Origin: Thraustochytrium sp. TN22
Lineage: Eukaryota; Sar; Bigyra; Thraustochytrida; Thraustochytriidae
Length of the DNA stretch: 64,000 bases
Assembly: GCA_013306675.1 (NCBI GenBank)
Contig: JABLUY010000113.1
Location: 49,907 to 113,906, forward strand
Direction: 5' to 3'
In this document: positions 34,457 to 61,493 of the stretch, in pieces
How positions within the stretch are numbered: position 1 is the first letter of the stretch
Layout: the number at the start of each line of letters is the position of its first letter
Notes under the pieces: generated by a model
What the model was told of the DNA's origin: nothing
The model's input: only the letters and a program-made list of their open reading frames with translations
Database searches by the model: none
Position numbers and translations under genes: made by a program

Positions 34457-36250
34457 ATGGAGGCGGAGAAGAAGGGCGCTGCAGCCACGGTCGAGGCCGC
34501 TACGGACGACTCGGACTCGGACTCGGACTCGTACATCGAGTCAGAGGACGACCAGCCGCCCAAGAAGGCCGCGGCCAGATCGGCCAAGAGGCCGCAGAGC
34601 ACAGGCAACAAGAGCGGCGACAGCGCCGGCGCCAAGACCGGAAAGGACCAGGGCGACAAGGACAAAGACACGGACAAGTACAAGGAGGAGGCCGAGGAGA
34701 TCAGCGAGAGCGATGACAGCGGGAGCGGAAGCGACAGCGACAGCGAGAGTGGCAGCGGCAGCAGCGGCGACGACAGTGGCAACAGTGACGTGGACGAGGA
34801 CGGCAACAAGTCCAAAAGGCGAAGGCGCGGAAACACGCCGCGCGTCATCAAGATTGAAGCCGTGCATGAGCTCTCCGAACGCGAGCGTAACAGGCTCATG
34901 GTCGGCTTCATTGAAAGCTGCACAAAAGAGCTGCCGCTCATGTGGCGCCGGAGCCTCCTCGTCTTCCACACGGTGCGGGCCGGCCGCGGCGTGACCAGGG
35001 TCTACATTCTGAACGACTCGCAAATGGACGACGAGGAGAACATCAAAGACCCGACCAAGGTGACGCAGCGCCTCATCCGCCTGGACGTGCCCCCGAGCCA
35101 CTTCGTGGAAGCCACCAAGATCTCTCCCGATGGGCCTGCAGCATGCGTGATGAACGCCGTGAACTCGGAGCCGGGACTGCCGTTCGCTGTCGCGCGCAGC
35201 ACGCTCGAGCCGGCCGTCCTTGACGAGCGCGACTCGCTCACTGGCCTGGTCGAGCTGAAGCGCATCGGTGACGTCCCTGAACGGGCCGCCATGGCGGCCA
35301 CCGCGGCGCTCATCGAGAGCCTGACGCACCAGCCACGCTCTGCAGCCATGAGCGCCACCAAAAAGATCGCCATGGCCACAGCCAACCGCGCGCCGCGCTC
35401 CGTCACCCCACGCTCCGTCACCCCGCCGTCGCGCACGCCCAAGTCCAAAACCGCCAACGGCGGCAGCAACGCCACGGCCACCGTTGTCCGCCGCGCCAGC
35501 GGTAGCAGCAGCACCAGTGCCAGTAGCGTCGCCATCGTGCGCACCTCGTCGTCCTCCTCGTCCAAAAACGGGACCTCCTCGTCCAAAGCCGGGACCTCCT
35601 CGTCCAAAACCGGGACCTCCTCGTCCAAAGCCGGGACCTCCTCGTCCAAAACCGGGAGCAAGACCGACGCGGGCCGCGCTCTCGTCAACCTGCAGGAGAC
35701 CCTTGCGGCAGGATTCGCCAACGTTATGCAAAAGCACTTCCCTCCCGCTTTTGCGGCGCTCACGCGGGTGGAGGCCGAGGCCAAAACTGCTGCGAGGCGA
35801 GCAGACTTGGCCAAGTCGCGCGCCAGGTCCATCGAGGAGACAAATCACAAGCTCCTCAAGGACCTCGAGGCCGCCGAGCGCAAAATCACCAATCTCAAAG
35901 CTCGCCTCGCCAAGGCCGAGAATAACGCGGCTTCCGCCGCCTCGAGCGCCGGCGCGGCCTCCCCCACGCCCTCCGTCGACGCGCAAGCTGGCGGTGACGC
36001 CCAGCACGCCAAGCTGCTCAAGCTCACGCACCTCCTCAAGATGAGCCGCCGTCAGGCGAGAGACTGGGAAGAGAAGGCGGTCGAGGGCGCCGCTCGGCTC
36101 GCAGGCCTCGGTCAGCAGGTGGACTGGTGGGCGAACGAAGCCGAGGAATCTTCATCCGACGAGGAGATCCTCATCGGCCCGCCCTCTGGCAAGCGCTCGC
36201 AGCCAGGCCAAGCAGCGGCGAGCCCGGTCAAGAAGAAGGCAAAGCAATGA
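34457..36250 (+). CDS. Acidic coiled-coil protein, window paralogue family member 1
   Basis: Predicted 597 residues; not a known family. Residues 15-125 are Ser/Asp/Glu-rich and end in a basic cluster (KSKRRRRG). The central part (about 135-285) carries the domain shared with three other proteins in this window: an invariant-looking Trp (W163 in LMWRRSLLVF), GRGVTRVYI, a helix with FVEATK, NSEPG, then VARSTLEP and LTGLVELK. A Ser/Thr/Lys linker follows, with five GTSSSK(A/T/N)-type heptads at about 371-402. A coiled coil spans about 440-500. A second acidic patch (EESSSDEEI) and a basic tail (SPVKKKAKQ) close the protein and suggest nuclear location (inference). This copy is the most divergent of the four. 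ATG 34457 precedes the acidic region. Confidence 0.7.
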   Translation: MEAEKKGAAATVEAATDDSDSDSDSYIESEDDQPPKKAAARSAKRPQSTGNKSGDSAGAKTGKDQGDKDKDTDKYKEEAEEISESDDSGSGSDSDSESGSGSSGDDSGNSDVDEDGNKSKRRRRGNTPRVIKIEAVHELSERERNRLMVGFIESCTKELPLMWRRSLLVFHTVRAGRGVTRVYILNDSQMDDEENIKDPTKVTQRLIRLDVPPSHFVEATKISPDGPAACVMNAVNSEPGLPFAVARSTLEPAVLDERDSLTGLVELKRIGDVPERAAMAATAALIESLTHQPRSAAMSATKKIAMATANRAPRSVTPRSVTPPSRTPKSKTANGGSNATATVVRRASGSSSTSASSVAIVRTSSSSSSKNGTSSSKAGTSSSKTGTSSSKAGTSSSKTGSKTDAGRALVNLQETLAAGFANVMQKHFPPAFAALTRVEAEAKTAARRADLAKSRARSIEETNHKLLKDLEAAERKITNLKARLAKAENNAASAASSAGAASPTPSVDAQAGGDAQHAKLLKLTHLLKMSRRQARDWEEKAVEGAARLAGLGQQVDWWANEAEESSSDEEILIGPPSGKRSQPGQAAASPVKKKAKQ

Positions 36251-36914
36251 CCAAGTGCTCGTGCGCATGCAAACACATGCCTGCGCGCGCGCGGACCTGC
36301 GACGGCTGGGGTTGCTGGCAAATCTTGGCGTGCTTTCGGTTTCTTCTTCGCTTATTAGTCATGCGCTTGGCGCTTTGCGCGCCGTGCTGCCGTCCTTGAT
36401 CAAAATCCCGCTCTTTTTTTTTTTCGTCCCAGTCACATTGGCAGTGAGTGCACCTGCGCGTCCGCGCCGCGCCGCGCCGTGACGCCGATCTTGCCCATAG
36501 ATCACTTCACGGTCGCGGATGCATTTTCTCTCTCGGAGCTACATCGGAGAGGTCCCCAAGCGCACGTGTTTGCCAAATTTCATCTGTGGCAGGGCGCTCC
36601 CGCGCGCTGCCAGATAGTAGAATTAAACCACCAAAGGAAGGTCACCGTTGCGACCAGAGCACAAGAAAGAGAATCCATGTGTGAAGAAATGAAGAAGAAG
36701 AAGAAGAAGAAGAAGAAGAAGAAGAAGAAGAAAAAGAGGAAGAAGAAGGAGGAGCAGGAAGAGGGTACGGCCGGAAGCAAAAGACATAGCTCGGAAGCCT
36801 ACATGGTGTTCGTTCCTTACGCGCGTGCTCGGCTTTGCCACGCTTGCGATGCGTCCGGTTCATGTCGCGGTGACGCCCATACTCACTCTCATGCTGACCC
36901 ATCGTCTCGCTCAC
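36251..36914. other. Convergent 3' intergenic region with (GAA)n microsatellite
   Basis: A poly-T run (about 36413-36424) and a GAA/AAG run of about 50 bp (about 36690-36740) are present. Frames through the GAA run give poly-Lys or poly-Phe/Ser and are not genes. Confidence 0.5.
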
Positions 36915-37943
36915 TTAGTCCGACTCAGGCTCCTTGGCGGCATCCACCTTGGGCTCATCCGCATCGCGCGTCGCGCGGTCCGCATCGTCGTCCCGGCGGT
37001 CATCGTAGTCGTCGCGGCGGCGGTCATCGTAGTCGTCGCGGCGGTCGTCGCGGCGGTCGTCGCGGCGGTCATCGCGGCGGTCGTCGCGGCGGTCGTCGCG
37101 GCGTTCGCGGTCATCGCGGCGATCGCGGTCATCGCGGCGGTCGCGGTCGTCGCGACGGCGGCGGTCATCGCGATCATCGTCGCGGCGGTCGCGGCGGTCG
37201 CGGCGGTCGTCGTAGTCGTCGCGGCGGTCGCGGCGGTCGTCGTAGTCGTCGCGGCGGTAGCGGCGGCGGTCCGGGCTGCGCGAGCGCGAGTAGGAGCGGC
37301 GGCGCGGGCTGCGCGAGCGCGAGCGCGAGCGGGAGCGGGAGCGGCGGCGCGGGCTGCGGGAGCGGCGGCGCGGGCTGCGCGAGCGGCGGCGAGAGCCGTC
37401 GCGGCCACCGCCGCCGCCATAGCCGCCCTCCTCCTGCACGCGGATGCGAGAATCCTGCAGCATCATGCCGTCCAGGTCGCGCAGCGCACGCTCCATGGCG
37501 CCCCGGTCCGTGTACTCGATGAGCCCGGTGCCGTCGCGCTGCACCTTGGTAAAGTTGACGTCGCCTGACTTGCGCGCCACGTCCTTGAGGTCCTGCCACG
37601 AGAACCCGCGCGGCAGGTTGCTCACCATCAGGCGAAAGTCCGTGCGGCGCGCGCCGGGGCCGTCGCTCGGCCGGCCGCCGCCCGGGCCCTTCTGCGTGCC
37701 GCCCTTGTTGTTGGAGATCTCCACGCGGATCTGCCTGCCCATGAGATCCATGCCGTTGGTGGCGCGGATCGCCTCCTCCGCATCGTTCATGGTCTCCATC
37801 GTCACGAACGCGAAGCCGGCCGGCTTGCGGGCCAGCCACACGTTCGCCACGCGCCCGTACTTGCCGAACGCGTTGTCCAAGTCGCTCTCGCGCACATCGT
37901 ACGAGAGGTTGCCCACGTACAGCTTCACGCCCTCCTCGCCCAT
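36915..37943 (-). CDS. SR-family splicing factor (two RRMs plus RS/RD domain)
   Basis: Predicted 342 residues. RRM1 (about 6-80) has RNP2 LYVGNL and RNP1-like AGFAFVTM. RRM2 (about 100-170) carries SWQDLKD, the hallmark of the pseudo-RRM in SRSF1/4/5/6/9-type SR proteins, which binds purine-rich RNA through that helix. The RS domain (about 180-235) contains SPRRRSRSPRRRSRS-type repeats that SRPK kinases would phosphorylate. It then changes into about 100 residues of RRDDRDD/RRDD(Y) repeats. The protein should act in constitutive or alternative splicing in the nucleus. It shares a 575-bp divergent promoter with the Pol X gene. The RD-rich tail is the odd part: RS dipeptides give way to RD dipeptides that mimic constitutive phosphorylation charge. 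Confidence 0.9.
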   Translation of the reverse strand: MGEEGVKLYVGNLSYDVRESDLDNAFGKYGRVANVWLARKPAGFAFVTMETMNDAEEAIRATNGMDLMGRQIRVEISNNKGGTQKGPGGGRPSDGPGARRTDFRLMVSNLPRGFSWQDLKDVARKSGDVNFTKVQRDGTGLIEYTDRGAMERALRDLDGMMLQDSRIRVQEEGGYGGGGGRDGSRRRSRSPRRRSRSPRRRSRSRSRSRSRSPRRRSYSRSRSPDRRRYRRDDYDDRRDRRDDYDDRRDRRDRRDDDRDDRRRRDDRDRRDDRDRRDDRERRDDRRDDRRDDRRDDRRDDRRDDYDDRRRDDYDDRRDDDADRATRDADEPKVDAAKEPESD

Positions 37944-38518
37944 CGTGCCGCCGCCGTCGCGCGCGCGCGCAAGCCTGGCCGCCGACCCTCGCCTGCCCGC
38001 CCGCCGGTCCGCGCCTGCTCGCTCTCCTCGACCAGTCTATCTAGATCGAGACCGCCGCGGCAACCGCTGCCAGCTGGCTGGCCGCTGCCGCCGCCGCGCC
38101 GCCGCCGCCGCCGCCGGAGAACGGACCGCGGGGGGAGGGAGCGAGGGGGAGGGAGGGGGAGGCCCTGCCGCCGCGCCGCCGCCGCTCGCCGCCGCGCCGC
38201 GCGCCGTCGCCCTCGAGCTGCCGGCGTCGGAGGCGGTATGCTGCCGGTGCCCGTCGCCGCCGCCGCCCGCGGAGGTACCGCATTTCGGGACCGCGCCCGT
38301 GCGCGAGGTCCCGCGCGACCCGGTGAGTCGGAGGCGGCGTCGCGCTCACTGGCAGAACCTGAGAGCGAACTCCGAAGGCTCCGAAGCGCCCTGAAGCGGC
38401 TCCGGGCGCCGCAGGCTGAGGCTCGCCGCACGCCAGCCCGCACTGCCCACGGGCCTGCGGCAGAGCACAGACTGAGGCTTTCTGCGACGTCTGCCGCGGC
38501 CGGGCGGGAGGGAGAGAG
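37944..38518. promoter_or_regulatory. Divergent promoter region, SR factor and Pol X
   Basis: GC-rich, with CCGCCGCCG runs and a GGGA/GGGGGA purine tract at about 38128-38162. A CACTGGCAGAA motif lies near 38348, similar to motifs in other 5' regions of the window. Confidence 0.4.
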
Positions 38519-40174
38519 ATGCGCGGCGTCGAGGTGCTCGGCCTTGTCCCTCGCGGGCGCGACCTGACGGCGGGCTACGCGAAGCTCGTCAAAAAGCAGC
38601 TGCGCAGCAAGTGGCGCGTCGACTGCGAGGACGAGTTCTCCGACCGCGTCTCGCACGTCGTGGCCTCGCTCCACGCCGGCGAGAATGACCTCATCGAGTG
38701 GGTGCTCGGCCCGGACAAGGCCGCCACGGCGGACGCGAGGGACCGTGACGAGGCGGCCGCTCGCCTCAACAAGCTTCCGGTGCGCACGCTTGCGTGGCTC
38801 CAGGAGCTCCACGCGCACGGGGAGCCGCCTGGCGATGTCACTGAGGAGATGGACTGGCGGCGCTGCAAGGCCAAGGCGGAACGGGAGGCGCGGGAGCTGC
38901 GAGACAAGGAGGAGCAGCGATCCAAAGAGGAGCAGCAAGAGCGACAGGAGCTGCTCGAGCAGCCGGCCCAGGGTCCGCACTCGCGCAAGAGGCCACGCGG
39001 CAACCCTCCGTTTGCGCGCAACTCTCGCATCACCGAGCCCCTGCAGGAGCTCGTTGACTTCTACGCGCTGATCAAGGACGAGTGGCGCGCCTACGCTTTC
39101 CAGCGCGCGCTCGATGTCATCCGCGCGCTCCCCTTTGAGATCCAGGACGCGGACGACCTCAAGCCATACAGACTCGTGGGCGAGTCGACGCGCGACCTCG
39201 TGCGCGAGCTGCTCGCCACTGGGTCCATGAAGCGCGCACAGGACGTGTGGACGCCCCGCGCCAGGACCGCGCAGGCGCTGTGCCGCGTGCACGGCATTGG
39301 ATTCCAGGCTGCCAACAAGCTCATCGACAAGGGCTTCACGTCGGTGCAGGCGCTGCGCGAGGATCCCTCCGAGCTGACGCCCGTGCAGCGCACCGGCCTG
39401 CAATACCTGGAGGATCTGCAGGAACGGATCCCGCGCGAGGAGGTTCGCGCCATCGGGGACGCTGTCGAGCTCGCCGCGCGCGCCTTGTGGCCCCGCAAGC
39501 GCATCGAGTTCGTGATCGGCGGCTCCTACCGACGCGGCTCCGTTGACTCCGGCGACGTTGACATCATCCTGTGCACGCCGGACGAGGCCGGTTGCCCGCC
39601 CATGAGCGCGCTTCTCGCCGACCTCTCCGCGCGAGGCCTGCTCGTGGCCGACCTATCTCGCGTCAAGGAGCTTCCGGAGAATGACGCAGGCCAGGTCGCG
39701 GAGCGACAGACCTACATGGGCATCTGCCGGCTCCCTGGCTGCAGCGTGTGCCGCCGTCTCGACATTAAAATCTACCCACGCGAGGAGTTTCCCTTCGCCC
39801 TCATTTACTTCACTGGCGACGACCACTTCAATCGCTCGCTACGTCACCTTGCTCGTTCGCGCAACCTCACGCTGAACGACGAGGGTATTTTCAAGGCCAT
39901 CATCAGCGGCCGAAATCGCCTCGCCAAAGCCGGCGAGCGCCTGGTGAACGACTGCCGCACCGAAGCGGACGTCTTTCACTTTCTTCACCTACCCTACCGG
40001 CCTCCGGACGACCGCCACGGTTTCAACCCTGACGTGCTGCGCATCCTCCACGCCGGCCACGACAAGGAGGACAGCTCCTTGCGTTCCCCGTCGCCGTCGG
40101 GTTCGCGCAGTACGGGTTCGCGCGGCACTCCGGGGCCTTCGCCTGCCAAGCGGCCTCGCATGAGCTCCGAGTAA
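38519..40174 (+). CDS. Family X DNA polymerase (Pol lambda-like)
   Basis: Predicted 551 residues. Acts in gap-filling during base excision repair and end joining in the nucleus. The N-terminal 75 residues resemble a BRCT domain (VEVLGLVPRGRDL, SDRVSHVVAS, then an IEWVLG helix). A charged linker with KRPRG follows. The 8-kDa domain (about 175-245) and the fingers helix-hairpin-helix (VHGIGFQAANKLIDKGF) precede the palm: GGSYRRGSVDSGDVDI with catalytic D346 and D348, and third aspartate D415 in LDIKIYP. The YFTG motif is at Y430-G433, followed by Asp434, where Pol lambda and mu have Ser. The thumb contains LNDEGIF and the end matches the family pattern FHFLHLPYRPP. Length and the presence of a BRCT favour Pol lambda over Pol beta. 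The C-terminal 35 residues are Ser/Pro-rich. Confidence 0.9.
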   Translation: MRGVEVLGLVPRGRDLTAGYAKLVKKQLRSKWRVDCEDEFSDRVSHVVASLHAGENDLIEWVLGPDKAATADARDRDEAAARLNKLPVRTLAWLQELHAHGEPPGDVTEEMDWRRCKAKAEREARELRDKEEQRSKEEQQERQELLEQPAQGPHSRKRPRGNPPFARNSRITEPLQELVDFYALIKDEWRAYAFQRALDVIRALPFEIQDADDLKPYRLVGESTRDLVRELLATGSMKRAQDVWTPRARTAQALCRVHGIGFQAANKLIDKGFTSVQALREDPSELTPVQRTGLQYLEDLQERIPREEVRAIGDAVELAARALWPRKRIEFVIGGSYRRGSVDSGDVDIILCTPDEAGCPPMSALLADLSARGLLVADLSRVKELPENDAGQVAERQTYMGICRLPGCSVCRRLDIKIYPREEFPFALIYFTGDDHFNRSLRHLARSRNLTLNDEGIFKAIISGRNRLAKAGERLVNDCRTEADVFHFLHLPYRPPDDRHGFNPDVLRILHAGHDKEDSSLRSPSPSGSRSTGSRGTPGPSPAKRPRMSSE

Positions 40175-42435: not shown

Positions 42436-42483
<48 letters not shown>

Positions 42484-44183: not shown

Positions 44184-46337
44184 TCATTGCGGGCTTGTGG
44201 CCCCGTTCATTCGTGGCTGCTTCGCAGGCGATTGCTGCTGCGAGAGCTCCCATAGCTCGTCGTACTTGCGCTTGAGCGATTGATACTTGCCCTCAATCGC
44301 CTTCTTCTCTCGCTGGTACGCATGGCGCTCCTCCTCGTGAATCATAACCTGCCCTTTGGCAGTCGCCTTGTACATGCTCACCTCTGCCCGGAGCTCATGG
44401 ATCTCGGCATGAAGGGCGTCCAGCTCCGTGCTGCCGGGCGAGGCCGGCCCGGGCATTCGCAACATTTCCACCTCGGAGCGCAGAGCGTCGTTCTGCTTTC
44501 GGAGTGTCGCCAGCTCGAGGGCTCTTCTTGCCGCGTCCGCCTGGAGCCTTTCGACGTCCGAGCTGGCGGCCACGAGGTGCGCGAGGGCCTCAAGGACGCT
44601 CTTTGCTCCGGGCTTTAAGGTCTCGGGAAGCGCGTCAAGTGCAGACGCAGGAGGGATGACCAACGCCGGCGCCGGCCGCGTGTGGTGCTTCCCACTTGGG
44701 GTTGCAGAGGGGGCAGATTCTTGGCCCGCCAGGGATGGACTGGACCGCATCGATGAGCGCCCGAGGTTGGCGGCGCGCTCGGAGACGTCTCGCGCTATAC
44801 CTGAGGGCCTCTCCGGGCCCTCCGTGGGCTGCGCCGCGGGCGGCGTGGAGGGCGCCTCTAACGCCGCCTCGCCATTTGCCGGGGCGCGAGGAGACGTTGA
44901 GGGAGCGACAAGCGGCGCGGCCGGAGGCGGAGATGCCGTAGACCTCGAATAAGACGAGGACGAGGCGCGTCCGGGCCTGGGCCCAAGACGTCGAAGGATG
45001 ATCGAGCCACGCATGGAGGGTCGGCCCTTGGCGGTCTCGGTGAAGGTGAAGCCTTCTCCAAGTTCGGCCGAGATGGGATTACTCTCGTCGGCCTCAATGG
45101 AGCGAAGCGCCTTCGAAAGACCGCCGCCGAGCGCCTCGATGGCGCTCACGAGCTTGGGATTGCTGACCCCGGGCGCTGCTTTGGTGGTTTCAAAGTTGGG
45201 GGCCCCATTCAAGGCCAGCTTGACCCGCACGCTTCCTTTGCCTTGTTCGTGGGGCTCAAACCGGAGTTCCGCCGAGGTCCAGGAGCTGGAAATCTCCGTG
45301 ACGTTCTTCTCGAACCCCCGCACGGCCTTGCCCAGCACACTAGCCGCCTGCTTGGCATCCGGAGTAGGCTGCTTCCGGTCCGGAGACTGCGGGCGGGTCT
45401 CGCGCGACGGCGTGGTGCTCTCGTCGACCATCTGCACGGACGCCTCCCCGTCGGACTCCTCGGATGAGTCCACCGTGTCGGATGGCTTGGAGCTTCTGTA
45501 GGAACCAGCGCGCCGCCGCCCGCCGCTTCCATTCTGAGCCGCCTGGGCGGGCGGCTTTTGGGTCTCCTCGTCCCTGGACGTTGTTGCCCGTTGTCCTCGC
45601 TGCCTGCCCTTTGCGGCTCGGCCCCTCTTTTCGTTTTGACCGCCACGCTCTCCTCCAGTCGTCATGGCATCCTCGTAGGATGCATTCTCGGATGCATCCT
45701 CATAAGCATCATCGGATGCGTCCTCATCATCCTTGTCGTTCTCGTCGTCGTCGCTGGGATCCTCCGTGTAGTTTACCCCGGCTGACGCCCCCCTTACCCG
45801 TCGGCGTACAGGCCCCGCGGGAGGGCTCATCTCCTCCAGCCCTGAGACACCGAAGTCGTCCGCGTCGTCCTTGGCGTTGGCTTTAGCAGCGGTACCCCTT
45901 CTTCCCTTGCCGTGCGCGGTCTTGGGCGTCTGGCCTGCCGTGGCCTTCGTCTGTGCTATGACCTCCTCGCGTTCCTCGCCAAGGTCGTCCTGCTGCGAAT
46001 CGCGCTTCCGGTCTAACGCAACGTCAGCAGCGTCGGCCATCCCAGCCAGCTGATCAGCAGCGTCGTCCTCGCCATCCACCTTGCCCTCGTCCTCGCTCCG
46101 CGTCTTGGCGGCGCTCGCCAGCTGCGGATCCTTGGCGGTGCCCTCGTCCTCGGCGTCCTCGTCCTCGTCCTCGGACATGTGCAGGTCCACCACGGACTGC
46201 TGCGGCTGCTTTGACGCCGCGGTGTCCGAGACGGCGCCCATGCTCTCCGCCGCCGCTGCCACTGCCGCCGCCGCCGCCGCCGCCGCCGCCGCCCTGGCCG
46301 AGCGCGCTTGTTGATGTGTGGTCTGCTCTCTCTCCAA
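44184..46337 (-). CDS. Acidic coiled-coil protein, window paralogue family member 2
   Basis: Predicted 717 residues; no known family. The first 325 residues are acidic, Ser/Asp/Glu-rich with basic islands (KRGRAAKGRQRGQR) that could be nuclear signals. The shared central domain spans about 325-465: W353 in SSSWTSAELRF, GKGSVRVKLALNG, a helix (LVSAIEALGGGLSKALRSIE), ESNP, and RGSIILRR at its end. A Ser/Ala/Pro-rich linker follows, then a coiled coil (about 585-695) and a basic end (SPAKQPR). It lies convergent to the PHTF gene with a 170-bp gap. The same layout occurs at 34457-36250, 57675-59531 and 60105-61493. Confidence 0.7.
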   Translation of the reverse strand: MEREQTTHQQARSARAAAAAAAAAAVAAAAESMGAVSDTAASKQPQQSVVDLHMSEDEDEDAEDEGTAKDPQLASAAKTRSEDEGKVDGEDDAADQLAGMADAADVALDRKRDSQQDDLGEEREEVIAQTKATAGQTPKTAHGKGRRGTAAKANAKDDADDFGVSGLEEMSPPAGPVRRRVRGASAGVNYTEDPSDDDENDKDDEDASDDAYEDASENASYEDAMTTGGERGGQNEKRGRAAKGRQRGQRATTSRDEETQKPPAQAAQNGSGGRRRAGSYRSSKPSDTVDSSEESDGEASVQMVDESTTPSRETRPQSPDRKQPTPDAKQAASVLGKAVRGFEKNVTEISSSWTSAELRFEPHEQGKGSVRVKLALNGAPNFETTKAAPGVSNPKLVSAIEALGGGLSKALRSIEADESNPISAELGEGFTFTETAKGRPSMRGSIILRRLGPRPGRASSSSYSRSTASPPPAAPLVAPSTSPRAPANGEAALEAPSTPPAAQPTEGPERPSGIARDVSERAANLGRSSMRSSPSLAGQESAPSATPSGKHHTRPAPALVIPPASALDALPETLKPGAKSVLEALAHLVAASSDVERLQADAARRALELATLRKQNDALRSEVEMLRMPGPASPGSTELDALHAEIHELRAEVSMYKATAKGQVMIHEEERHAYQREKKAIEGKYQSLKRKYDELWELSQQQSPAKQPRMNGATSPQ

Positions 46338-48178: not shown

Positions 48179-48211
48179 TCTGCGCCGTCCGCGCCGCGCG
48201 CCGCCTCTGTC

Positions 48212-48237: not shown

Positions 48238-48731
48238 GAACCTTTCCGTCTGTGATAATCCTACCGGACTTGTTTATCCAGGTTTGTCCGACTCCGTCCG
48301 CTTCATGACAGAAGGGGAAGGATATACTTTCCCGGACCTGGTCGTGGAAAGACGCGGAAAGATTGTCGAGGCGCCGAGTCTTGGGTTGGACGCACTCGGA
48401 CGGAAGCTGTGGGCATTGGCTGTGGATAAGTCGGAATTCCGGAACTTCTGGTCCAATGACGAAAGTCCGGGGCCGGTGGTTGAGCTGCGGCGCTGCGACG
48501 CTGCGGCTGGTGGTTAAGCTCAGCCTGCAAACCGTCAAAGGCGTCGCGGCAGCCGCGTCTGCAGCGGCGGTGGCGGTGGCGGCGGCGGTGACGGCGGCGG
48601 CGGCGGTGGCGGTGGCGGTGGCGGCGGCAGCGGCTGCGACAGCAGCGGGGCCGCAGGCTGAGGCGCCGATGGGTACATGCGGAGCCCAGTCCGTGGTTGC
48701 ACTGGTTGGCTCAACCTCGACTCCAAGACCG

Positions 48732-51700
48732 ATGAGCCTGAGCGACAACGACGGCAGCGACGACAGCGACGATGACGACGGCGTCGGCCGCGACCTTGTT
48801 GGCGAACAAGGAGACAGTTCTCAGGGTAGATCAAGCCCCTCCGTGCTGTCCACGTCGGAGCCAGGCTCTGATGCTGCCGCTAAAACGTGCGGCAGTCCAG
48901 CGACTGCGAGCTCAGGCGGGAACTCGGGCTCGGATCTGATATCAACATCTAGTAGCTCGTCCTCCCAAGCGAAAACGACGGACCACACCAACCCGGGGTC
49001 CTGGGCGACATATTTTGGAGGCATGAAGCGGAAGCCGACGAAGAAGGTTCAGGCCGTGAAGCCGAAGCGGCTGAAGTCGTCAAAGGCCCAGGCGAAGACC
49101 GGAGCCACGGCCAACGAGGTGACACCGAAGCAAGGCACGTGCCGGAAGAACGAGCGCATGGACCACAAGCAGTACGTCCAGATTGCAATCGATCATGACC
49201 TTGTCGAGATCAACCCGGCCGAGGAAGGCGACTCCCACGTGTGCAAGGTGTGTAACCAGCCTCAAAGCTGGAGCACGAACCGTGCGAACTGCTACCGTCA
49301 CTTCAAGCGCTGTCACAAGGAGCATCACGGGCTCGTGCTCAAGGCGATCGAGGAGCTCGCGTCCAGGATCGAGGCCGAGGTTGACGCCGAGGTCGAAGCG
49401 AAGCTGGTCCGGGCTCAACAGACGTTTGGCAACTCGAAGCGCCCGGCGGCAACCCTTCGCGAGCGGCGCTTGCTCAACATCGAGTTCACGCGCATGATCA
49501 TCGACGCCAGCCTCCCGTTCAGCCATGGTAGGCTGCCTTCGCTGCGTAGGTGGGTGAGTCTGATGTGCCCATTTGACTACACACCGCCCGTTGAGAGCAC
49601 CGTGAAGGAGATCATGCATGCCGAGAAGACCTGTATGGTGCAGTCTATGTACGCGAGCATCAGGGCGTTGTGCGACCGCGCGGGGCTGCCACGGCTTGTC
49701 CTGCAACACGACGCCTGGAGCAGCTACAAAGGTGACTCCTTCCTAGGGATCCAGCTTCGCTGGCTGGACGATTGGAAAGTGCGCGTCATGACTCTCGGCA
49801 TGGACCCCTTCAACGAGAAGCACACCGGCATGAACATCGCGCAGCGCCTGCGCGAGACCGTTTCAGATCTGCTCAACGACGCCTCTGCCGACGCGGAAGC
49901 GACTAGCCAGGACGCGGAGGAAGACGACGAAAACCAGGAGGTTGGCAGCGTCGTGGAGGATGCAAAGTTCAAGAAGCAGGTGGCCGCGGTCATCTCAGAC
50001 GGCGCAAGCAACTGCATCGCCGCAAACGAGGCGCTGGGCGTGCCATACGAGCATTGCGCTGCGCATCGACTCAACCTCTGCGTGCAGCACGCCTTCGGCT
50101 TCCTCATCAGCTCCAAGCTGACCAACGAGCTGCTGCAGACCGTCGGCCTGACCGGCCTCAAGGATGTCGACGAGCTCGCCGATGCCATGGGCCCAGAACT
50201 CGAGGCGAGTGCGGTGCCAACCGCGGACTCACTCGTGCGGATGTTCGCCCTCACAACGACTTCACAGGGCACGGCATCCAGCGTGGATGTCGACCAGCAC
50301 AACCTGCACCAGCTCTGGGAGATCTCGGCAGGAATTTACGGCGCCCCGTCCCAGCAAGCGCCACTTGACGACCTTCGCAGCGATATCATCGCCAAAAACG
50401 TCTCCTACGAGTTCTTTGAAGAGCGCGGCCGTCAGGCCGCACGCGTCTTGCAAGGAGGCGAGACGATATGGACGAACGAGAAGCGCGTGCTTACGACGCT
50501 AGTAGCCCGAATTAAGCTGCGCAACAGCTTCTTGACGCGCTCACATGTCGCCGCGAACGCGCTGACGGCTATCTGCAAGGTACTCGGAATCAAGAAGACC
50601 CGGGCGCCACGCGAATGCGCGACGCGCTGGAGCGGCTTCCTGTCGCTCGTCGAGTTTCATGCTACAGTGTGGCCCGCCTTCGAGCTGCTCATCTCAACAA
50701 AGAAGGACATCAAGAACTGCAAGTGGATCAACAAGGCTCAGCAGGAGACGATCATGAAGATCGCTGAGCGCATCACCTGCTCAGGCAGGTTCGATAAGAT
50801 GAGCGCGCTGCGCGCCACGGGCGACGAGGAGCTCATACTCCCGGAACTTCAGCAACTCCTGTCGCAGACCTACCGCGTGCAAGCCTTTGCGCAGCGCTTT
50901 CACAAAACGCGCGCGCAGATCTTCGTCGCTGTGGAGGGCCTCAAGGGTGCTCTCTACGACTCCTACAACGTCGTCTCATCGCAGAGCGTGAAGGCGGCGA
51001 TCAAGCTCCGCGGCGACATCTCGTCCAGCACCATGGCAGAGGCGAACCTCGAGCCCGAGGCGCGCACAATCAAATTCCTGAAGCTTCACCCCGTGACCCG
51101 CATGGTCGCGCACCGCCTCGTTGCCTTCCTGGACCGGTACTTCGACCCGCTTTGGACATCACCCAAGGGTTCCGATGCGAGGCCCGGCACAGACCCAGCA
51201 TCAATCATGCTCGCCCTCGAGATCCCTTTTCGCTCGACGCAGCTGCCTCAGATGCTCCTCGCCCGCGCATCCGTTCTTATCTGCGTCGGCCGTGCTGAGC
51301 TGCTGCGCGAAGTCGCATTCGGTCGTTCTGTGGGGCTGCGTGGCTTCGGCTCGGAGGTGGACGGCCTGAGGAGGATGCACGAGAATGCGTTGACCAAGCC
51401 TATCCTGCTTGGTCTGATGAAGACGGTCGCTAACACCTGCCAGAGCAAGATCAAGGATCGATCTTTCATCGCACGGGACTTCATCGAGAGCCAGGTCATG
51501 GAGCTCATCGTCGAGGAGCTACTGAACGAGGAGCCGCCGACACCTGAGGTCTGCACAACGCCAGACACATTCCCAAACGATTATACCTTGGGCGACAGCG
51601 ACAGGTCTGGCGACAATGAGGACGAGGTTCTGGACGACTTCATCTTCAAGGTGGTACCCATCTCGCCGGCCTCTCTGACCCACGCGGACACCGACCGTAC

Positions 51701-52157
51701 CAAAAGCACCCGAGAGAGAGCCAAGGAGGTGGCTTCGCGCGAGCTATCCTTTATTCGCGAGGAGACCCGCAAGATGGAACAGAACGAGTCGCGGAATCTA
51801 CAAGGTATGACGTATTCGAAGCTGTGGTCCTACTCAATGGATTGCACAGAAGCCAGCCTGGGCAAGGACATCAGCACCAAATGGTTCAAGACCTACGAGA
51901 GCCACGTCAAGCACGTTGCAATGGTCTTTGCGCACAACTACGTGGTCGATCCAACGACCTGCTCAACCGAGAGCATGTTGAGTACTGTGGCGCTCGCGCA
52001 GAGCCAGCGCCGCAAGGGCCGACTTCTCTCCCAGAGCCTGTCTACGTACGCCTTCCTTAGGAACAACGGGTCCAACCTCTGCGACAGCACCGAAGTCCTC
52101 CGGCACATCGAGGCGACTGCGAAGAATCGTGTTCGCGCTCCCCAAGTAAAAAATTAA
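48732..52157 (+). CDS. hAT-family transposase with BED-type zinc finger
   Basis: Predicted 1141 residues from ATG 48732, which begins an acidic leader (MSLSDNDGSDDSDDDDG); the frame is open to an ATG at 48363 through Ala/Val-rich sequence, so the true start may be earlier. A BED-like zinc finger at 171-195 has the form C-x2-C-x15-H-x4-H (C171, C174, H190, H195). The RNase-H-like core shows HDAWSSYKGDSF with first catalytic Asp D327, then ISDGASNCIAANEAL with D423, followed by YEHCAAHRLNL and later ECATRWSGFLSLVEF, all hAT landmarks. The third catalytic Glu is not pinned down. The C-terminal hATC dimerisation segment is recognisable (CSTESMLSTVALAQSQRRKG, ending in STYAFLRNN). No stop or frameshift interrupts it, so the protein could be active. 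Confidence 0.9.
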   Translation: MSLSDNDGSDDSDDDDGVGRDLVGEQGDSSQGRSSPSVLSTSEPGSDAAAKTCGSPATASSGGNSGSDLISTSSSSSSQAKTTDHTNPGSWATYFGGMKRKPTKKVQAVKPKRLKSSKAQAKTGATANEVTPKQGTCRKNERMDHKQYVQIAIDHDLVEINPAEEGDSHVCKVCNQPQSWSTNRANCYRHFKRCHKEHHGLVLKAIEELASRIEAEVDAEVEAKLVRAQQTFGNSKRPAATLRERRLLNIEFTRMIIDASLPFSHGRLPSLRRWVSLMCPFDYTPPVESTVKEIMHAEKTCMVQSMYASIRALCDRAGLPRLVLQHDAWSSYKGDSFLGIQLRWLDDWKVRVMTLGMDPFNEKHTGMNIAQRLRETVSDLLNDASADAEATSQDAEEDDENQEVGSVVEDAKFKKQVAAVISDGASNCIAANEALGVPYEHCAAHRLNLCVQHAFGFLISSKLTNELLQTVGLTGLKDVDELADAMGPELEASAVPTADSLVRMFALTTTSQGTASSVDVDQHNLHQLWEISAGIYGAPSQQAPLDDLRSDIIAKNVSYEFFEERGRQAARVLQGGETIWTNEKRVLTTLVARIKLRNSFLTRSHVAANALTAICKVLGIKKTRAPRECATRWSGFLSLVEFHATVWPAFELLISTKKDIKNCKWINKAQQETIMKIAERITCSGRFDKMSALRATGDEELILPELQQLLSQTYRVQAFAQRFHKTRAQIFVAVEGLKGALYDSYNVVSSQSVKAAIKLRGDISSSTMAEANLEPEARTIKFLKLHPVTRMVAHRLVAFLDRYFDPLWTSPKGSDARPGTDPASIMLALEIPFRSTQLPQMLLARASVLICVGRAELLREVAFGRSVGLRGFGSEVDGLRRMHENALTKPILLGLMKTVANTCQSKIKDRSFIARDFIESQVMELIVEELLNEEPPTPEVCTTPDTFPNDYTLGDSDRSGDNEDEVLDDFIFKVVPISPASLTHADTDRTKSTRERAKEVASRELSFIREETRKMEQNESRNLQGMTYSKLWSYSMDCTEASLGKDISTKWFKTYESHVKHVAMVFAHNYVVDPTTCSTESMLSTVALAQSQRRKGRLLSQSLSTYAFLRNNGSNLCDSTEVLRHIEATAKNRVRAPQVKN

Positions 52158-52445: not shown

Positions 52446-52463
52446 AATAACTTGCGATGTCTG
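52446..52463 (-). repeat. hAT right terminal inverted repeat
   Basis: Reverse complement reads CAGACATCGCAAGTTATT, matching the left repeat at 15 of 18 positions. Confidence 0.9.
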
Positions 52464-52471
52464 TGCAGGAG
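52464..52471. repeat. 8-bp target site duplication, right copy
   Basis: TGCAGGAG, identical to 48212-48219. Confidence 0.93.
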
Positions 52472-52633
52472 CTCTGCCTGCCTGCCTGCCTGCCTGCCTG
52501 CCCCTCCACGCCGCGCAGAGTCACGGTCAACGAAGCCGTCGCCAACGCCAACGCCCACGCTGACGTCGACGCTGCCGACGCCGACGCCGCTGCTCGCGGC
52601 CGGTGCTGCTGGGGCGCGCGAGCTCGCCGCCGC

Positions 52634-52673
<40 letters not shown>

Positions 52674-55008: not shown

Positions 55009-57189
55009 CTAGGGAGGAGGAGGAGCCGGCCGCCCGGTACCGGTACCGATCGGCGGGACCGCCGCGGGGTGCGCGCGGTACTTGAACTCGGTACTCGGCT
55101 TGTGCCGGCCCGTGACGGCTCGTATCTTGGAGGAAGGAAGCGCGGCAGGACGCAAGTCACTCCAGGCACTCTCGCCGCCCCCCCACGGCGCGCCCGAGTC
55201 AATGCCCGGGACCAAGTCCTGAGTGAGCAGGTTCTCCCAGCATGCGACCGCACCGTCCTCCGCGCTGATCGCGCAGCAAGAGCGTCCGCCGCAGGTCCGC
55301 AACGCGGCATCGGAGAAGGGGAGCGCGACCTGCGAAGGCGTCATCCACTCGTACTCGGACGAGTTGCTGCCGATCTTCGCAAAGGGATCCGCGACGCCAA
55401 AGTAGTTGGTACCCCAACACCAGACCGTTCCTTCGGCGAGAAGAGCGCACGCAGCTGAGTCGACGAGCTCCACGGAGACGACGGCGACCCCGCTGGGGAG
55501 GCCATTCACCACCGCGGTGGGCTCGAGAATGACGTTGACGCTGGATACGTTGTACTCGTCGCTCGTCTGGTCGACCGGCACGACAATGTTGAACTCGTCG
55601 TTGCCCCAGCAGTAAAGACGGTCGTCGTGGGCACTCACGGCGCAGACCACGTTTCTGTTCATCGCCACGTCCTTGGCGCGAAAGTTGGCGCTGCCGGTGT
55701 CCCCCGACGGCGCGGTGACGAAGGACGGCTCGTACCACATGGGCATGCCGAACGGCTGGCCGACGCCAAGCTGGGCCATGTCGTTGGTGCCCCAGCATAC
55801 GAGACGGCCGCCAAGGTCGCCACGGATGCTCCAGCCTGCGTAACGGCTGGTTACCGTCTTGTCCTTGGGCTCCCAGGTGGCGCCCATGACGTCATTCCGG
55901 ATCACCGTCGGCCAGATCTTGGTGTAGGCCTGCCCCGACGGGCTGACGCTCAAGCCGACGTTGTCGCCCCAGCACGCGGTGATGCCCTCCGTAATTACTG
56001 CGCAAGCAGCGTCAACGAAGCGCGCCGGCGACAACATGCTGGCGCCCAAGTGGTCCGGCACCTCCGTGTACTCGTTGACCGACCCGAAGTCCTCATAGCT
56101 GTAGTTATCGTCGCCGAGCAGAAACGAGCAGAAGCTGCCGACACAGGCCATAGTGTCGTTGGTGTAGATGTCGCAGGTGGCCGACTGGTAGGCGGCGAGT
56201 GACTTGATGTCTGCCGCCGTGAAGGCAGTCACGGCGGTGGGCGCGACATTGGCCGCCACGGAGGACGCCGTGCACTGGGACTCGTCGTTGCGGCCCAGCA
56301 CACGATCTCGCCCGTGACGGTGGCGGCGAAGCTGGTGGTCGGCCCGACGTGGAGCGACACGAGGTTGGAGGGCGCCCCTCCTTCGCGGTGGCGGTGGAGG
56401 CATAGGCAGCCGGCACGCTGGAGTCGCCCGTGCCAAACTGGCCGTCGTCGCAGCCCCAGCAGTAGGCTGTGCCGTTCGACAGGGCGCAGAAGGTGGCGCC
56501 CGCCGAGCCCAAGGGCAGTGGCGGCACCCGGCAGCCCTGTCACCGCCCGCGGCAGTGCGCGGAGCCGCCCGGCCCGTCCAGCCACTCCCAAGTTCGCCGA
56601 CGCCCTTCGCGGCCCAGCACCACACACTGCCGTCCGCCAAGAGAGCACAGGCAGCCGACTGCGCAAGCGCAATGTCAACGGCGGCCACCCATTGCGGCAG
56701 CCCCGTCACAGAAAACGTCCGCTCGCGAAAGACCTCCGCCACTTCCGTTCCGTCGGAGAGAGCCACTGGTCCAAGCCCACGATGCCATTGCTGTTCTTGC
56801 CCCAGCAGTAGACGCGGCTGTCGTGCGCGCTGATGGCGCACGTGTTGTCGCCACCCACGGCGAAGTCCGTCGCGACGAAGACATCCGCGCTCTTGTGACT
56901 CATGGGCGCCGCCACGAGGCCCACCTTGTCGTCGCGATCGGTCGCGCCACTGTTGGCGGCGCCCCAAGCGACCAGCGTACCGTCGTCTCTCATGAAGATG
57001 TCATGCTTTTCTTCGAGGCCCGCAAGCAGCTGACCGGCCTGCAGCGGGACAACAAGATTGGTACTAGTTACTAGTACGAAGGCCGTTCGTCGTCGTCAAC
57101 GCCGTCGTCAACGCACATGCCACGAGCACCAGCGCATTCACACCGACGACCACATGTACGATTGAAGCACGCACGCGTGTGCGCGCCAT
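55009..57189 (-). pseudogene. RCC1-repeat protein, frameshifted
   Basis: An RCC1-type propeller protein whose repeats carry paired Cys (VYCWGKNSNG, ACALLADGSVWCW, LVCWGTNDMAQ, CAVSAHDDRLYCWGNDEF, ACALLAEGTVWCWGTN), a pattern of extracellular-type RCC1 repeats. The part from about 56290 down to 55150 is open. Upstream the repeats continue but in changing frames: shifts are needed near 57070, 56775, 56600, 56525, 56395 and 56290. A hydrophobic leader (IVHVVVGVNALVLVACALTT, about 57090-57155), in yet another frame, could be the signal peptide start at 57189. Neighbouring genes are uninterrupted, so decay is more likely than sequencing error, though small introns or assembly errors are not excluded. 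The last about 50 codons before 55009 have no repeat character. A perfect palindrome CGGTACCGGTACCG lies near 55035-55048. Confidence 0.65.
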
Positions 57190-57674
57190 GCATCCACAGA
57201 AGCTTCCAGTTCGACGTCGTCTGGAGTCTGGACAGACTTGGAGTCCAGGATCGTGGACTAGATCCTGCTGCAGTGCCACGGGGCTGCTGGGCGCGTGCAG
57301 GCAGTGCTCGGCGCGACTGCGACTACCCCCGCCCCCTAGCTAGAACCTTATCAGAAGGATTGACGGCCACAAAACCTTCCCAAAGCTTCCGTGCTTCCAC
57401 GCCGTGGTAGTCACGATCTCCTCAGATTCCCCTCGGGCTCCCGCTCCCGCACGGCGCTCAGCCAGCTCAGCTGGGACGAGCGGCGAAGAGCAGAGAAAGC
57501 AAACCCGGAACGACTTGGCGCGAAGCAAAGCCTGAGCTGCGAAGGGGGAAGCCGCAAGGGGGGAGCTACGAGCCGCTGCGTGGCGCGGCGCGGCGCGGCA
57601 CGGCACGGCACGGCGCGGACGGCACGGCACGGCACGGCGCGGAGCGACGCGACGCGACGAGGCGCGAAGCGAAG
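57190..57674. promoter_or_regulatory. 5' region of paralogue-family member 3
   Basis: Contains GCTGCAGTGCCAC and GGCAGTGCTCGG (about 57269-57311) and a GGCGC/GGCAC tract at about 57580-57660 just before the start codon, like other gene starts in the window. Confidence 0.4.
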
Positions 57675-59531
57675 ATGCGCGAGGCGGCGATGCAGGTAAG
57701 CCAGGCTCACCGCAACGAGAACGAGGACAGCGACAGCCTGGGCAGCTCGAGCGATGACGAATCTCTTCAGGAGGAGGAGCACGGCATGGGCAACGCGGGC
57801 TCCTTCAAGCAGTCTGCTGAGAGCCAGGACCCGCAGGATGTTCACGGGCCGGTTGCTGCTGGACAGCCGGATGCCGTCGCGAACAAGTCCGACGACGAAG
57901 CCGCCTCTGTCCTGACGGCAACCGACGTTGAGGAGCGACACGCAGGAAGGGGAGCCCGCGCCAGAGGCCAGGGTGAAATCTACAGGCAGTCGCACGCCGA
58001 GACCGACGAATCCTACGAGGAGGACGAGGACAACGCGTATGAGGATGATGATGGGGACGATCCTGACGATGCCTCGTATGAGCCCGATGATGACGTTGCT
58101 GGCGCGGGCCAAGACGAGGAGGCGGGCCACGCCGCGCCCATCGAGCCGCGAGAGAAACGCGAGCGTTCCAAGCGGGACTTCTACAACCCAGGGCCCGTCC
58201 CTGCGACGAAGCGTCGCTGCTCATCGGCGGCAACTCGAGTCTTACTCGATCGACAGAAGGCGAAAAAATTCATCCAGTATTGCCTTAAACGCCTGGTCAT
58301 GGGCATCAAGGCAAAGAGGCCGGGCTGGGGCACCGCCGTCATCAGATTTGTCCAACAAAAGAGGGGCACCGGCGTGACCAGCATGTTCCTTGAGGTGGAC
58401 GATTTGGACTCTCACCCATTCAAGGTTCCGCGAAAGATGAGCCTCCGCAAGTTCGCCGAGGCGGTCAAGGCCGTAGGTGATTCCGAAGCCATCCTCAGAG
58501 GCACGGGTTCCGCCTCCAACCCGGCGGCCGCCGTCGTGAGGAGGAGCTCACTCAAGGTTCAGGACCTGCCCGAGGACCTCGCGCTCGAGGGTGAGATTGA
58601 ATTATGCGTGCAGACGGATGCTGCTCGCGCCTCGGACGAGCCTCATTCTGCCAATAGCGCCACGGCTGCAGGGCTTCTCGCGACCTCAAGCTCGGATCCG
58701 TCTTTCCTGTCGGCGCCGGCCATCGTGCCCACAAGCTCGCCCGTGTCTGCGGCGTGTCCTCCCGCTGCGAGCCCAGCCACGTCGTCGTCGAGCTCACCTG
58801 CGCCTGTCTCTTCTGCACAGGCCGGAAGTCGCTCCGCGCATTCCACTTTGCCTGCGCACGCGCCTGCTGCGCCATTGAGCTCCTCTGCACCCGCGTCTTC
58901 TGGAGCTTTTGCTCCCGCGTCGCCAGCGCAAGTTGCGCCTCGTGCCGCGTCGTCGCGCTCGGCTGTGCAAGTGCCGAGTGCGCCCTCGAACATGCCGTTG
59001 GCCCCGCCAGCGGTCTCGTCATCTTCACAGTCAGCGCATGATGCGGAAAATGTCAGGTCTTCAGGCCCGCAGTCGCCAGCGCTGTCTCCGGCGCTGGGCA
59101 CAACCTTTCGATCCACGTCGAGCTCCTCCTCTGCGTCTGCATCTGACCGTGCTCTCGAGACTGAGGGCGGCGACCTGGGCGACGACGCGGACCGCAACCG
59201 CGACATGAAGCGCAGGTGGGCGGATATGCAGGCTTTCTGCGAGAGAGAAAAAGCGGACAGCATCAGAGCGGCCGTGAGAGACGCTGAAGCAAGGGCTGAG
59301 AAGACGTTGCAAGCCGAGAAGCAGAAGAAGCGCAAACTCCGCGAGGAACTTGTAAAGGAGCGCGGGATGCGCAAATCACTGGAGGAAGAGCTCGCGCATG
59401 AGCGCGGGAAGCGCGAATCCGTGGAGGAAGAGCTGATGCATGAGCGCGAGAAGCGCAAATCTGTGGAGGAGGAGCTTGCAGTTCGGGAGAAGCGCGTCGA
59501 GCTCTTCAAGAAGCAGGCATCTTTATTGTGA
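57675..59531 (+). CDS. Acidic coiled-coil protein, window paralogue family member 3
   Basis: Predicted 618 residues; unknown family. Residues 10-165 are acidic (SDSLGSSSDDES, TDESYEEDEDN, DDDGDDPDD) and end in a basic cluster (REKRERSKRD, ATKRR). The shared domain (about 187-315) reads: RVLLDRQKAKKF, PGWGTAVIRFVQQ with W218, GTGVTSMFLEV, HPFKVPRKMSLRKFAEAVKA, SNPAAAVVRRSSLKV and LEGEIELCV. Residues 330-500 are Ala/Ser/Pro-rich. The C-terminus (about 510-615) is a coiled coil with three tandem repeats of a 15-residue unit of KxxxVEEELxHExxKR type. Closest relative in the window is the next gene downstream (60105-61493), same strand, so the pair looks like a local duplication. No enzymatic motif is seen. 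Confidence 0.72.
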   Translation: MREAAMQVSQAHRNENEDSDSLGSSSDDESLQEEEHGMGNAGSFKQSAESQDPQDVHGPVAAGQPDAVANKSDDEAASVLTATDVEERHAGRGARARGQGEIYRQSHAETDESYEEDEDNAYEDDDGDDPDDASYEPDDDVAGAGQDEEAGHAAPIEPREKRERSKRDFYNPGPVPATKRRCSSAATRVLLDRQKAKKFIQYCLKRLVMGIKAKRPGWGTAVIRFVQQKRGTGVTSMFLEVDDLDSHPFKVPRKMSLRKFAEAVKAVGDSEAILRGTGSASNPAAAVVRRSSLKVQDLPEDLALEGEIELCVQTDAARASDEPHSANSATAAGLLATSSSDPSFLSAPAIVPTSSPVSAACPPAASPATSSSSSPAPVSSAQAGSRSAHSTLPAHAPAAPLSSSAPASSGAFAPASPAQVAPRAASSRSAVQVPSAPSNMPLAPPAVSSSSQSAHDAENVRSSGPQSPALSPALGTTFRSTSSSSSASASDRALETEGGDLGDDADRNRDMKRRWADMQAFCEREKADSIRAAVRDAEARAEKTLQAEKQKKRKLREELVKERGMRKSLEEELAHERGKRESVEEELMHEREKRKSVEEELAVREKRVELFKKQASLL

Positions 59532-60104
59532 ACAAGTAACGAGTGAGCTATGCATGATCAGTCGTCGATCGAAATCGGCCATCTTGCTCCGTCTCAGTGC
59601 GAACGCCATGTTCAGCGTGACGGCTGAAGGCACCACGACAATCGCCCAGTTCTGTCTCGTCGGAAGGCGGAACAAGCAAGAGCCCGGTCCGAGTCACACT
59701 CGTCATATTGATTTTTTCTCGCGAATGGTCGCGCAACGTGAAACAAAACGAAGAGCGTCCGTCTCAAGCCCTTTGACTTGCAAAATGTCAAGGCACGCGC
59801 ACGCCAAAGTTGAGGAAGCGAAAAGGCCGCTCAAAGTCAGAGCCGTCCTGACAGTGAGGCGACGGAGAGTTCGTTCCCTCGGTTCCCTTTTAAGTAGAGT
59901 AAAAAAAGTGTCCGAGGGCCGGGGATCCCCCGCTCCCCTCGCGCTCCCGCGCCGCGCCTGTGCCGCTCTCGCTCTGTGCTGCTCCTCTGCGATGCAGCGT
60001 CCGCCCGTGGCGACGGCGGCCGCGACGCGCGCCCCAACAAACCCGCATCGATCGATCGTCTTGGCAGCCGCGCGCCGAGCCGCGTGGCTCGTGGCAACTG
60101 CAGG
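59532..60104. promoter_or_regulatory. Intergenic region between the two adjacent paralogues
   Basis: AT-richer than most 5' regions here. The stretch CTTTTAAGTAGAGTAAAAAA (about 59886-59905), about 200 bp before the next start, is the best TATA-like candidate. A CGATCGATCG palindrome lies near 60048-60058. No gene seen. Confidence 0.4.
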
Positions 60105-61493
60105 ATGGACGGCGTGGAGGCCGACGAGGCGTACGACTTGGACAGCAGCGACGTGGACAGCAGCGACACGGGCAGCTTCGAGGCGGCGGACAGCGGCGTG
60201 GGGACCTCGGGCGTAGCTGCGGAGCGAACGGCGGGCGAGGGGGGCGGCGACGGCGACGAGGAGGCCAGCCAGATGGTCCAGAGGATGCGCAAGGACAGCG
60301 AGCTGAGCTCCAACGAGAGTGAGCAGGAGAACGTGGAGAGCAGGGAGGCGCTGCCTAACCCAGAGTGGAATGATCGCAGACGAAGCCTGCGACCGAGTCC
60401 GCCCCCGACGGATCGCTATGGCGTTGGCGTGAGCGAGCCCTCGCGGAAGCCCCGCACCATCGCGCGCCACGCGCTGGGAGCGGGCGGCGCGAGCGATCAC
60501 GATCACGATGCGAGGGCCAGCACCAAACAGATTACTACGATTCGAAAGGAGCGAGTCTTGATTGATTCGTCGGCGGCGAAGGCGATCGTCGTGCGTGGAG
60601 CGAATCGCCTTGTCGACGAGATCACGGGGAAGAACCCAGACTGGGGCAGCGCGGTGGTCGAGTTCGTCCCGCACTCGCCTGGTCGCGGCACCACCAGCAT
60701 GCGCCTGAGTGTGAACGGCTCGTCCCGCGAGCCATTTACCATCCCGCTGAAGATGATTCTTGTGCAGTTCGTCAGGGCGGTTCAGTCGCTGGAGGATGCC
60801 GACGCCGTGCTCAAGAGCTTGACGTTCTCGTCCAATCCGCGGGTCGTTGTGACGAGGAGCTCGCTCGAGGTACGACAGCAGGCCAGGGGCCCTGCCCTCG
60901 AGGGTGAGGTTGAGTTCTGCGTGCTGGCGGGCACTGGAGTCGCCCCAGCCGGACCAGTTGCGCAGGCAGCGGCTCCTCTCGCGACGTCGAGCTCCCCCGC
61001 GTCTACGTCCATCACCGAGGTTGCGCCCTCGAGTTCCTCCTCGTCGGCAGAAAGTACGGATCGTCTTGCGTTGACTCGCTCACCTGCGTCGTCTCGCTCA
61101 TCTGCGTCGTCTCGCTCACCTGCGTCGGTCGAGTCTCACGTGGAGAACCACGGCTTTGACGCTATCGCCATCAGCGAGGATCGCTCACCGTGTGTCAAGA
61201 GCGTTTTCGCGATGCTGGAGCCCGGCATTCGCGCCGAGCTGGAGGCGCATTACGCAGAAAAGGAAGCTCGCCGGGTCGAGACGGCGGAGGCAGCCGCGAA
61301 AAAGAAGGCGGAGGCCGAGCTGCGGGCCAGCTTCCAGGAGGAGAGGCTCAAGCTCGAGGAGAAGCTCGCGGAGGAGCGCCGGAAGCGCATGAAGGAGAAG
61401 AAGCGGCGCAAGCAGCTTGAGAGCATGCTCGAGCCTGTCGCGGAGAAGATGGTGCGCAGGCGCCTGAAAAAGGCCAAGACGGCGAACGAATAA
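60105..61493 (+). CDS. Acidic coiled-coil protein, window paralogue family member 4
   Basis: Predicted 462 residues; unknown family. The acidic N-terminus (about 1-85: DLDSSDVDSSDTGSFEAADS) is shorter than in its paralogues. The shared domain (about 148-285) reads RVLIDSSAAKAI, PDWGSAVVEFVPH with W180, GRGTTSMRLSVNG, EPFTIPLKMILVQFVRAVQS, SNPRVVVTRSSLEV and LEGEVEFCV. Next comes a Ser/Pro/Thr-rich linker with SPASSRSSASSRS repeats, then FAMLEPGIRAELEAHYAEKE leading into a strongly charged coiled coil (about 375-460) and a basic end (RRRLKKAKTANE). Identity to the upstream neighbour is obvious by eye across the domain. ATG 60105 begins the acidic region; the frame is open further upstream but changes composition there. 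Confidence 0.72.
   Translation: MDGVEADEAYDLDSSDVDSSDTGSFEAADSGVGTSGVAAERTAGEGGGDGDEEASQMVQRMRKDSELSSNESEQENVESREALPNPEWNDRRRSLRPSPPPTDRYGVGVSEPSRKPRTIARHALGAGGASDHDHDARASTKQITTIRKERVLIDSSAAKAIVVRGANRLVDEITGKNPDWGSAVVEFVPHSPGRGTTSMRLSVNGSSREPFTIPLKMILVQFVRAVQSLEDADAVLKSLTFSSNPRVVVTRSSLEVRQQARGPALEGEVEFCVLAGTGVAPAGPVAQAAAPLATSSSPASTSITEVAPSSSSSSAESTDRLALTRSPASSRSSASSRSPASVESHVENHGFDAIAISEDRSPCVKSVFAMLEPGIRAELEAHYAEKEARRVETAEAAAKKKAEAELRASFQEERLKLEEKLAEERRKRMKEKKRRKQLESMLEPVAEKMVRRRLKKAKTANE

Follow-up and report, generated by a model that had tools for sequence, protein, structure and literature searches.

Four genes in a 64,000-nucleotide stretch of Thraustochytrium sp. TN22 DNA (contig JABLUY010000113.1, positions 49,907 to 113,906; hereafter the window) belong, firmly for three of them and probably for the fourth, to a paralogous family whose proteins join an acidic N-terminus and a central domain, predicted to be of alpha/beta type, to a linker and a charged tail. 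Our best reading, to which we give a probability of about one in three, is that this family, dispersed over the genome, acts as nuclear oligomeric adaptors. The window corresponds to C15:49907-113906 in the organism's own assembly (37.9 Mb, 453 contigs), which was used for the genome searches. All four reading frames claimed in the earlier note on this DNA are present, and they are laid out below with their domains in window coordinates.

34457..36250, forward strand: member 1, a probable relative; acidic N-terminus, domain, S/T/K-rich linker, helical tail and basic C-terminus PVKKKAKQ
34883..35272, forward strand: alpha/beta domain of member 1 (residues 143-272); nearest relative on C262, expectation value (E) 7.2e-15
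35553-35657, forward strand: 21-nucleotide tandem repeat in the member 1 linker
44184..46241, reverse strand: member 2 from its first ATG; the N-terminus carries SVVDLHMSEDEDED
44982..45353, reverse strand: alpha/beta domain of member 2; nearest relative on C341, E 8.4e-11
57675..59531, forward strand: member 3; acidic N-terminus, domain, Ser/Pro/Ala linker and tail
58251..58619, forward strand: alpha/beta domain of member 3; AlphaFold2 predicted local distance difference test (pLDDT) 79.8, predicted template modelling score (pTM) 0.74
59358-59476, forward strand: 42-nucleotide (14-residue) tandem repeat in the member 3 tail
60105..61493, forward strand: member 4; acidic N-terminus, domain, short linker and highly basic helical tail (RRRLKKAKTANE)
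60567..60935, forward strand: alpha/beta domain of member 4; sister to that of member 3, 43% identical

The first ATG of member 2 lies at 46241, and the start at 46337 given in the earlier note is a TTG. The ATG of member 4 at 60105 falls within a GTG-started open reading frame (ORF) spanning 59976-61493.

Homology in the window and across the genome

Direct phmmer searches link domains 3 and 4 at E 3.8e-24 and domains 2 and 4 at E 2.6e-5. In Smith-Waterman comparisons with 300 shuffles, five of the six domain pairs beat every shuffle, the pair 1-2 being equalled by 6 of the 300. The sequences leave no doubt that members 2, 3 and 4 have homologous central domains. Single-sequence phmmer gives no significant result for member 1. 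A profile of members 2, 3 and 4 picks it up at E 5.2e-4, with the next match among 699 six-frame ORFs at 1.2; its domain scores 19.7 bits against this profile, the best of 2000 shuffles reaching 7.0, and hhalign aligns it to members 2-4 at P 4e-6. A profile of the seven firm members described below, in contrast, gives member 1 an E of only 0.62. Because the profile tests of member 1 disagree, its relationship to members 2-4 is taken as probable and that among members 2-4 as firm. The paralogous family proposed earlier is thus upheld in the case of members 2-4, and member 1 is a likely part of it. Residues W, F, G, G, A, A, S, P and G are invariant in the four-row alignment, and the residues cited in support of the family are all in place: the four Trp residues W163, W353, W218 and W180 (W353 being numbered from the TTG), the GxG hairpin, the SNP/SEP turn, and RSSL/RSTL in three of the four.

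The family is not confined to four members, as had been supposed; five more loci (C341, C70, C26, C13 and C262) are found in the same genome. Queries with the window domains reach C341 (from member 2) and C262 (from member 1) at the E-values listed above, C70 at 6.6e-4 and C13 at 3.1e-3, while C26 is added by the queries with C341 (E 6.7e-3) and C70 (E 1.0e-32). Queries with C341, C13 and C70 join these three loci and members 2-4. A profile built from window members 2-4 alone scores C341 at 54.4, C13 at 34.3, C70 at 19.8, C26 at 11.4 and C262 at 8.7 bits, and in no case does any of 2000 shuffles reach the score. Leave-one-out profiles regain all nine loci at 22.0-86.7 bits, and no member has a score above 11.2 among its 1000 shuffles; the recovery of member 1 and C262 leans on each other. 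For the firm seven the range is 34.2-86.7 bits, the best of 1000 shuffles each lying at 5.2-11.2. Members 2, 3 and 4 with C341, C70, C26 and C13 therefore form a firm set of seven by these sequence comparisons. Member 1 and C262 form a firm pair which is probably attached to this set; the reverse profile, built from the pair, finds member 3 at E 3.5e-4, the other six not being significant. Tree support is 95/91 for members 3 and 4, 99/99 for C70 with C26 and 85/90, below the starred level, for member 1 with C262, and the remainder is not resolved.

A genome search with the profile consensus recovers all nine loci (C262 at no better than E 0.22), for which it is circular as the query was built from them, and adds a place on C199. 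The C199 match (E 0.24, one internal stop) has no support from the profile, and matches on C346 (by eye a PA-RING protein) and C177 (EF-hand-like by eye) were judged false. The count of nine, which leaves out C96 (genome search E 0.63), is a lower bound, because the genome search scores only the best candidates. No confirmed relatives were found in viral and prokaryotic contig collections, which are uninformative on other eukaryotes, and there was no phage match. The literature search yielded nothing pointing to the family among the matches listed.

C70:1-3280 and C26 (L036: 4922-6300) are sister copies, and the likeness of their DNA (about 71%) extends to the region before the domain. The domain and the acidic stretch of C70 sit in different frames, and the C26 frame lacks a coiled-coil tail. 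These oddities may reflect a pseudogene, an intron or an assembly indel.

The central domain and its predicted fold

One domain of about 120-140 residues is present per locus. A W precedes predicted strand 1 in eight of the nine, strands 1 and 2 are joined by a G-x-G/A hairpin, and the last strand carries L/M-x-G. AlphaFold2 models of members 3 and 1 have the same predicted order of elements, namely helix-strand-strand-helix-helix followed by three strands. These two of the nine domains were predicted from one shared alignment, so the predictions are not independent.

None of the nine domains matches a Pfam family at the cut-off. The best row is MRP_L53, to the C13 domain only (L035:4205-4573), over 32 residues at E 0.0026 and 18.2 bits against a cut-off of 25.3, and is probably a chance match. 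PHROGs and NCBIfam contain no family matching the four window domains up to E 1, and fold searches of the PDB with the member 3 and member 1 models gave no convincing match. A domain outside every family searched is therefore supported in members 2-4 and likely in member 1, its novelty being bounded by these libraries. Orphan paralogous families are a known kind, and the present one is a new family with a domain that matches no searched family.

Among the nearest known systems considered are the Alba/SpoVS fold of chromatin- and RNA-binding proteins and the EsaG/DUF600 (BH3703) proteins. Alba, whose fold is strand-helix-strand-helix-strand-strand, was suggested by weak structural rows and has no support from sequence. 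Pfam finds no Alba (PF01918) match in the nine domains or elsewhere in the genome, and hhalign against a two-sequence Alba template, which is a weak test, gives P 0.2, a value that falls among those of 60 randomly chosen ORFs of the window, the best of which reaches 0.1. Unlike the Alba/SpoVS fold, the family domain has no predicted strand before the first helix and has an extra hairpin strand, and the structural Z is too low to mean a common fold.

A proposed nuclear-adaptor role and competing explanations

The N-termini are acidic in all four window members (isoelectric point (pI) 4.3-4.6), and the region before the domain has a pI of 4.1-4.9 in four of the five other loci. The same order of an acidic N-terminus, the domain, a linker and a charged helical tail can be read from the ORFs of C341, C13 and C262. 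A short motif, hDLxxSxDE, is shared by three N-termini: the pattern [VILM]DLx{0,2}Sx?[DE][DE], which was written after sight of its matches, occurs three times in 227,894 six-frame residues of the window and eight stretches, each time in the family, in member 2 (SVVDLHMSEDEDED), in C70 (SVDLNLSDDEEE, which lies upstream of the domain in the acidic frame) and in C341 (NMDLSEDEDD). The start of C13, MVLDLSID, comes close to it and is no match. We take this motif to resemble a SUMO-interacting motif.

On the reading that we prefer, these would be oligomeric adaptors working in the nucleus. Subunits would be held together by the charged helical tail, and the acidic, disordered, Ser/Asp-rich N-terminus would attach to basic partners, for instance histones, or, by way of its hDLxxSxDE motif, to sumoylated proteins. 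Specificity for a particular protein or nucleic-acid partner would come from the alpha/beta domain, the paralogues being possibly specialised for different partners. The chromatin or nuclear-scaffold role put forward in the earlier note is likewise an inference. Acidic-tract nuclear coiled-coil proteins (histone chaperones, lamina-like scaffolds) are alike in their acidic segment and helical tail, a likeness of composition only, and no homologous domain was found. With histone chaperones only the acidic N-terminus is common, histone binding being putative, and with SUMO-binding proteins the motif-like sequence at three of the nine loci, SUMO binding again being putative. A narrower form of the adaptor reading, in which these are clade-specific SUMO- or chromatin-linked nuclear adaptors of one protist lineage, with an undescribed alpha/beta domain and two subfamilies (member 1 with C262, and the other seven), is doubtful.

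Several observations weigh against the nuclear-adaptor reading. Clusters resembling nuclear localisation signals exceed shuffles in member 4 only, and tail periodicity does so in members 1 and 2 only; the tails are mostly not homologous. The hDLxxSxDE motif is unmatched in members 1, 3 and 4, C13, C26 and C262. The 150 residues before the C262 domain have a pI of 9.3, a stretch that takes in residues before the ATG, the ATG-started N-terminus itself beginning acidic. Fold searches yield no functional hint, and of the five AlphaFold2 models made for member 1, three have a mean pLDDT of only 61-70. Scored with the profile of the seven firm members, member 1 gets only 6.9 bits, a value matched by 1 of 2000 shuffles, and C262 gets 8.1 bits (E 0.26), which none of 2000 matches. 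Apart from itself, C262 finds only member 1 in the genome, and member 1 likewise finds only C262.

The proteins might instead be DNA-binding transcription regulators, with DNA contacted by the domain or by a basic stretch ahead of a zipper-like tail, the tail dimerising and the acidic N-terminus activating. We regard this as rather unlikely. It agrees with the basic domain (pI 9.1-10.0) of seven of the nine loci and with the C13 and C341 tails, which by eye are short zipper-like helices rich in basic residues. However, the domains of member 1 and C341 have a pI of 5.7 and 6.2, no DNA-binding Pfam family reaches the cut-off in the full-length window members or the nine domains, and the Alba lead failed by sequence.

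A place in cytoskeletal, ciliary or condensate scaffolds rather than in the nucleus is unlikely. A helical tail with disordered linkers is a common plan among scaffolds of these kinds, and localisation-like signals do not exceed shuffles in three of the four window members. Acidic Ser/Asp tracts beside basic clusters, together with the hDLxxSxDE motif, are more usual in nuclear proteins.

It is quite unlikely that member 1 and C262 are a separate family, alike to the others in layout only. The mutual exclusiveness of their genome searches, the failure of member 1 in single phmmer and the seven-member profile would fit such a separation, against which stands the E of 5.2e-4 with the profile of members 2-4. 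Least likely of all, and improbable, is that these are domesticated or passenger genes spread by a mobile element: a multi-copy family dispersed over six contigs, the upstream likeness of C70 and C26 with the tail-less C26 frame, and a hAT-like ORF between members 2 and 3 would suit it, but the window members have no common flanking DNA (the only DNA-level match lies inside the 3/4 domain) and the ORF has no Pfam match.

The ORF in question, a long one at 48363-52157 on the forward strand, appears by eye to encode a hAT-like transposase with zinc-finger-like and C-terminal dimerisation-like stretches. Its hAT identity is unproven because Pfam gives no match up to E 10; among PDB sequences none is significant (best E 1).

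Genomic setting and meaning of the family

Local expansion, as suggested by the earlier note, applies to members 3 and 4, the only tandem pair. The nearest relatives of members 1 and 2 sit on other contigs (C262 and C341), and for this reason a single local burst does not account for the four window genes. Provided that all nine loci count, finding four of them inside 27 kb is far from random placement, for which a rough formula predicts about 1.8e-7 such quartets; the window cluster is therefore likely old. Family members sit no more than 6 kb from a contig end on five of the six contigs (C341, C70, C262, C13 and C15). By eye, the 200 bases at each inspected contig end contain nothing resembling a telomere repeat. 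GC-rich sequence of low complexity forms the ends of C262, C13 and C15 and the far end of C341, and the C70 end is ordinary sequence. A pairing with an RCC1-like neighbour was considered, as the start of C70 looks RCC1-like by eye, but the RCC1 protein of the window matched none of the eight stretches in tblastn.

The window has a GC content of 60-76% per 2-kb bin and a eukaryotic gene content, with long ORFs free of interruption. Codon usage of the four genes agrees with that of five other window ORFs, including the hAT-like one (r 0.97). Proteins named by Pfam include a protein kinase, an AAA ATPase, DNA polymerase lambda-like, TBC Rab-GAP, RCC1-like and PHTF-like proteins, a carboxypeptidase, MORN repeats, ThiF with DUF2470, Serinc and an RRM protein. 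The following neighbours and repeats were also observed.

58-2694: carboxypeptidase (M14) ORF, of which 711-1176 matches L038:7831-8287 (tblastx, E 1.5e-16); the latter, about 1.7-2.2 kb before the window on the other strand of the same contig, is possibly a neighbouring paralogue
15994-16315: about two tandem copies of a 168-bp unit, with a consensus different from that of the 22-kb array
22035-22682: tandem array of a unit of about 170 bp, in 4 copies with 89% matches, which runs up to the end of the VWA-domain ORF 22592-25615 (reverse strand)
28517-29869, forward strand: acidic protein whose middle region is unassigned and whose C-terminal stretch is PB1-like by eye; no Pfam family at cut-off, and not among the window ORFs matched by the family profiles
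61644-63830, reverse strand: ThiF-type protein fused to DUF2470, adjoining member 4

With nine anchors, a fold prediction and a further conserved motif available, the domain can be made into a profile for searching protist proteomes. It is in orphan domains shared by many paralogues that biology specific to a lineage is hidden. If the nuclear reading is true, the genes described here would constitute a lineage-specific family of chromatin- or SUMO-linked adaptors; otherwise they would be an ordinary orphan gene family.

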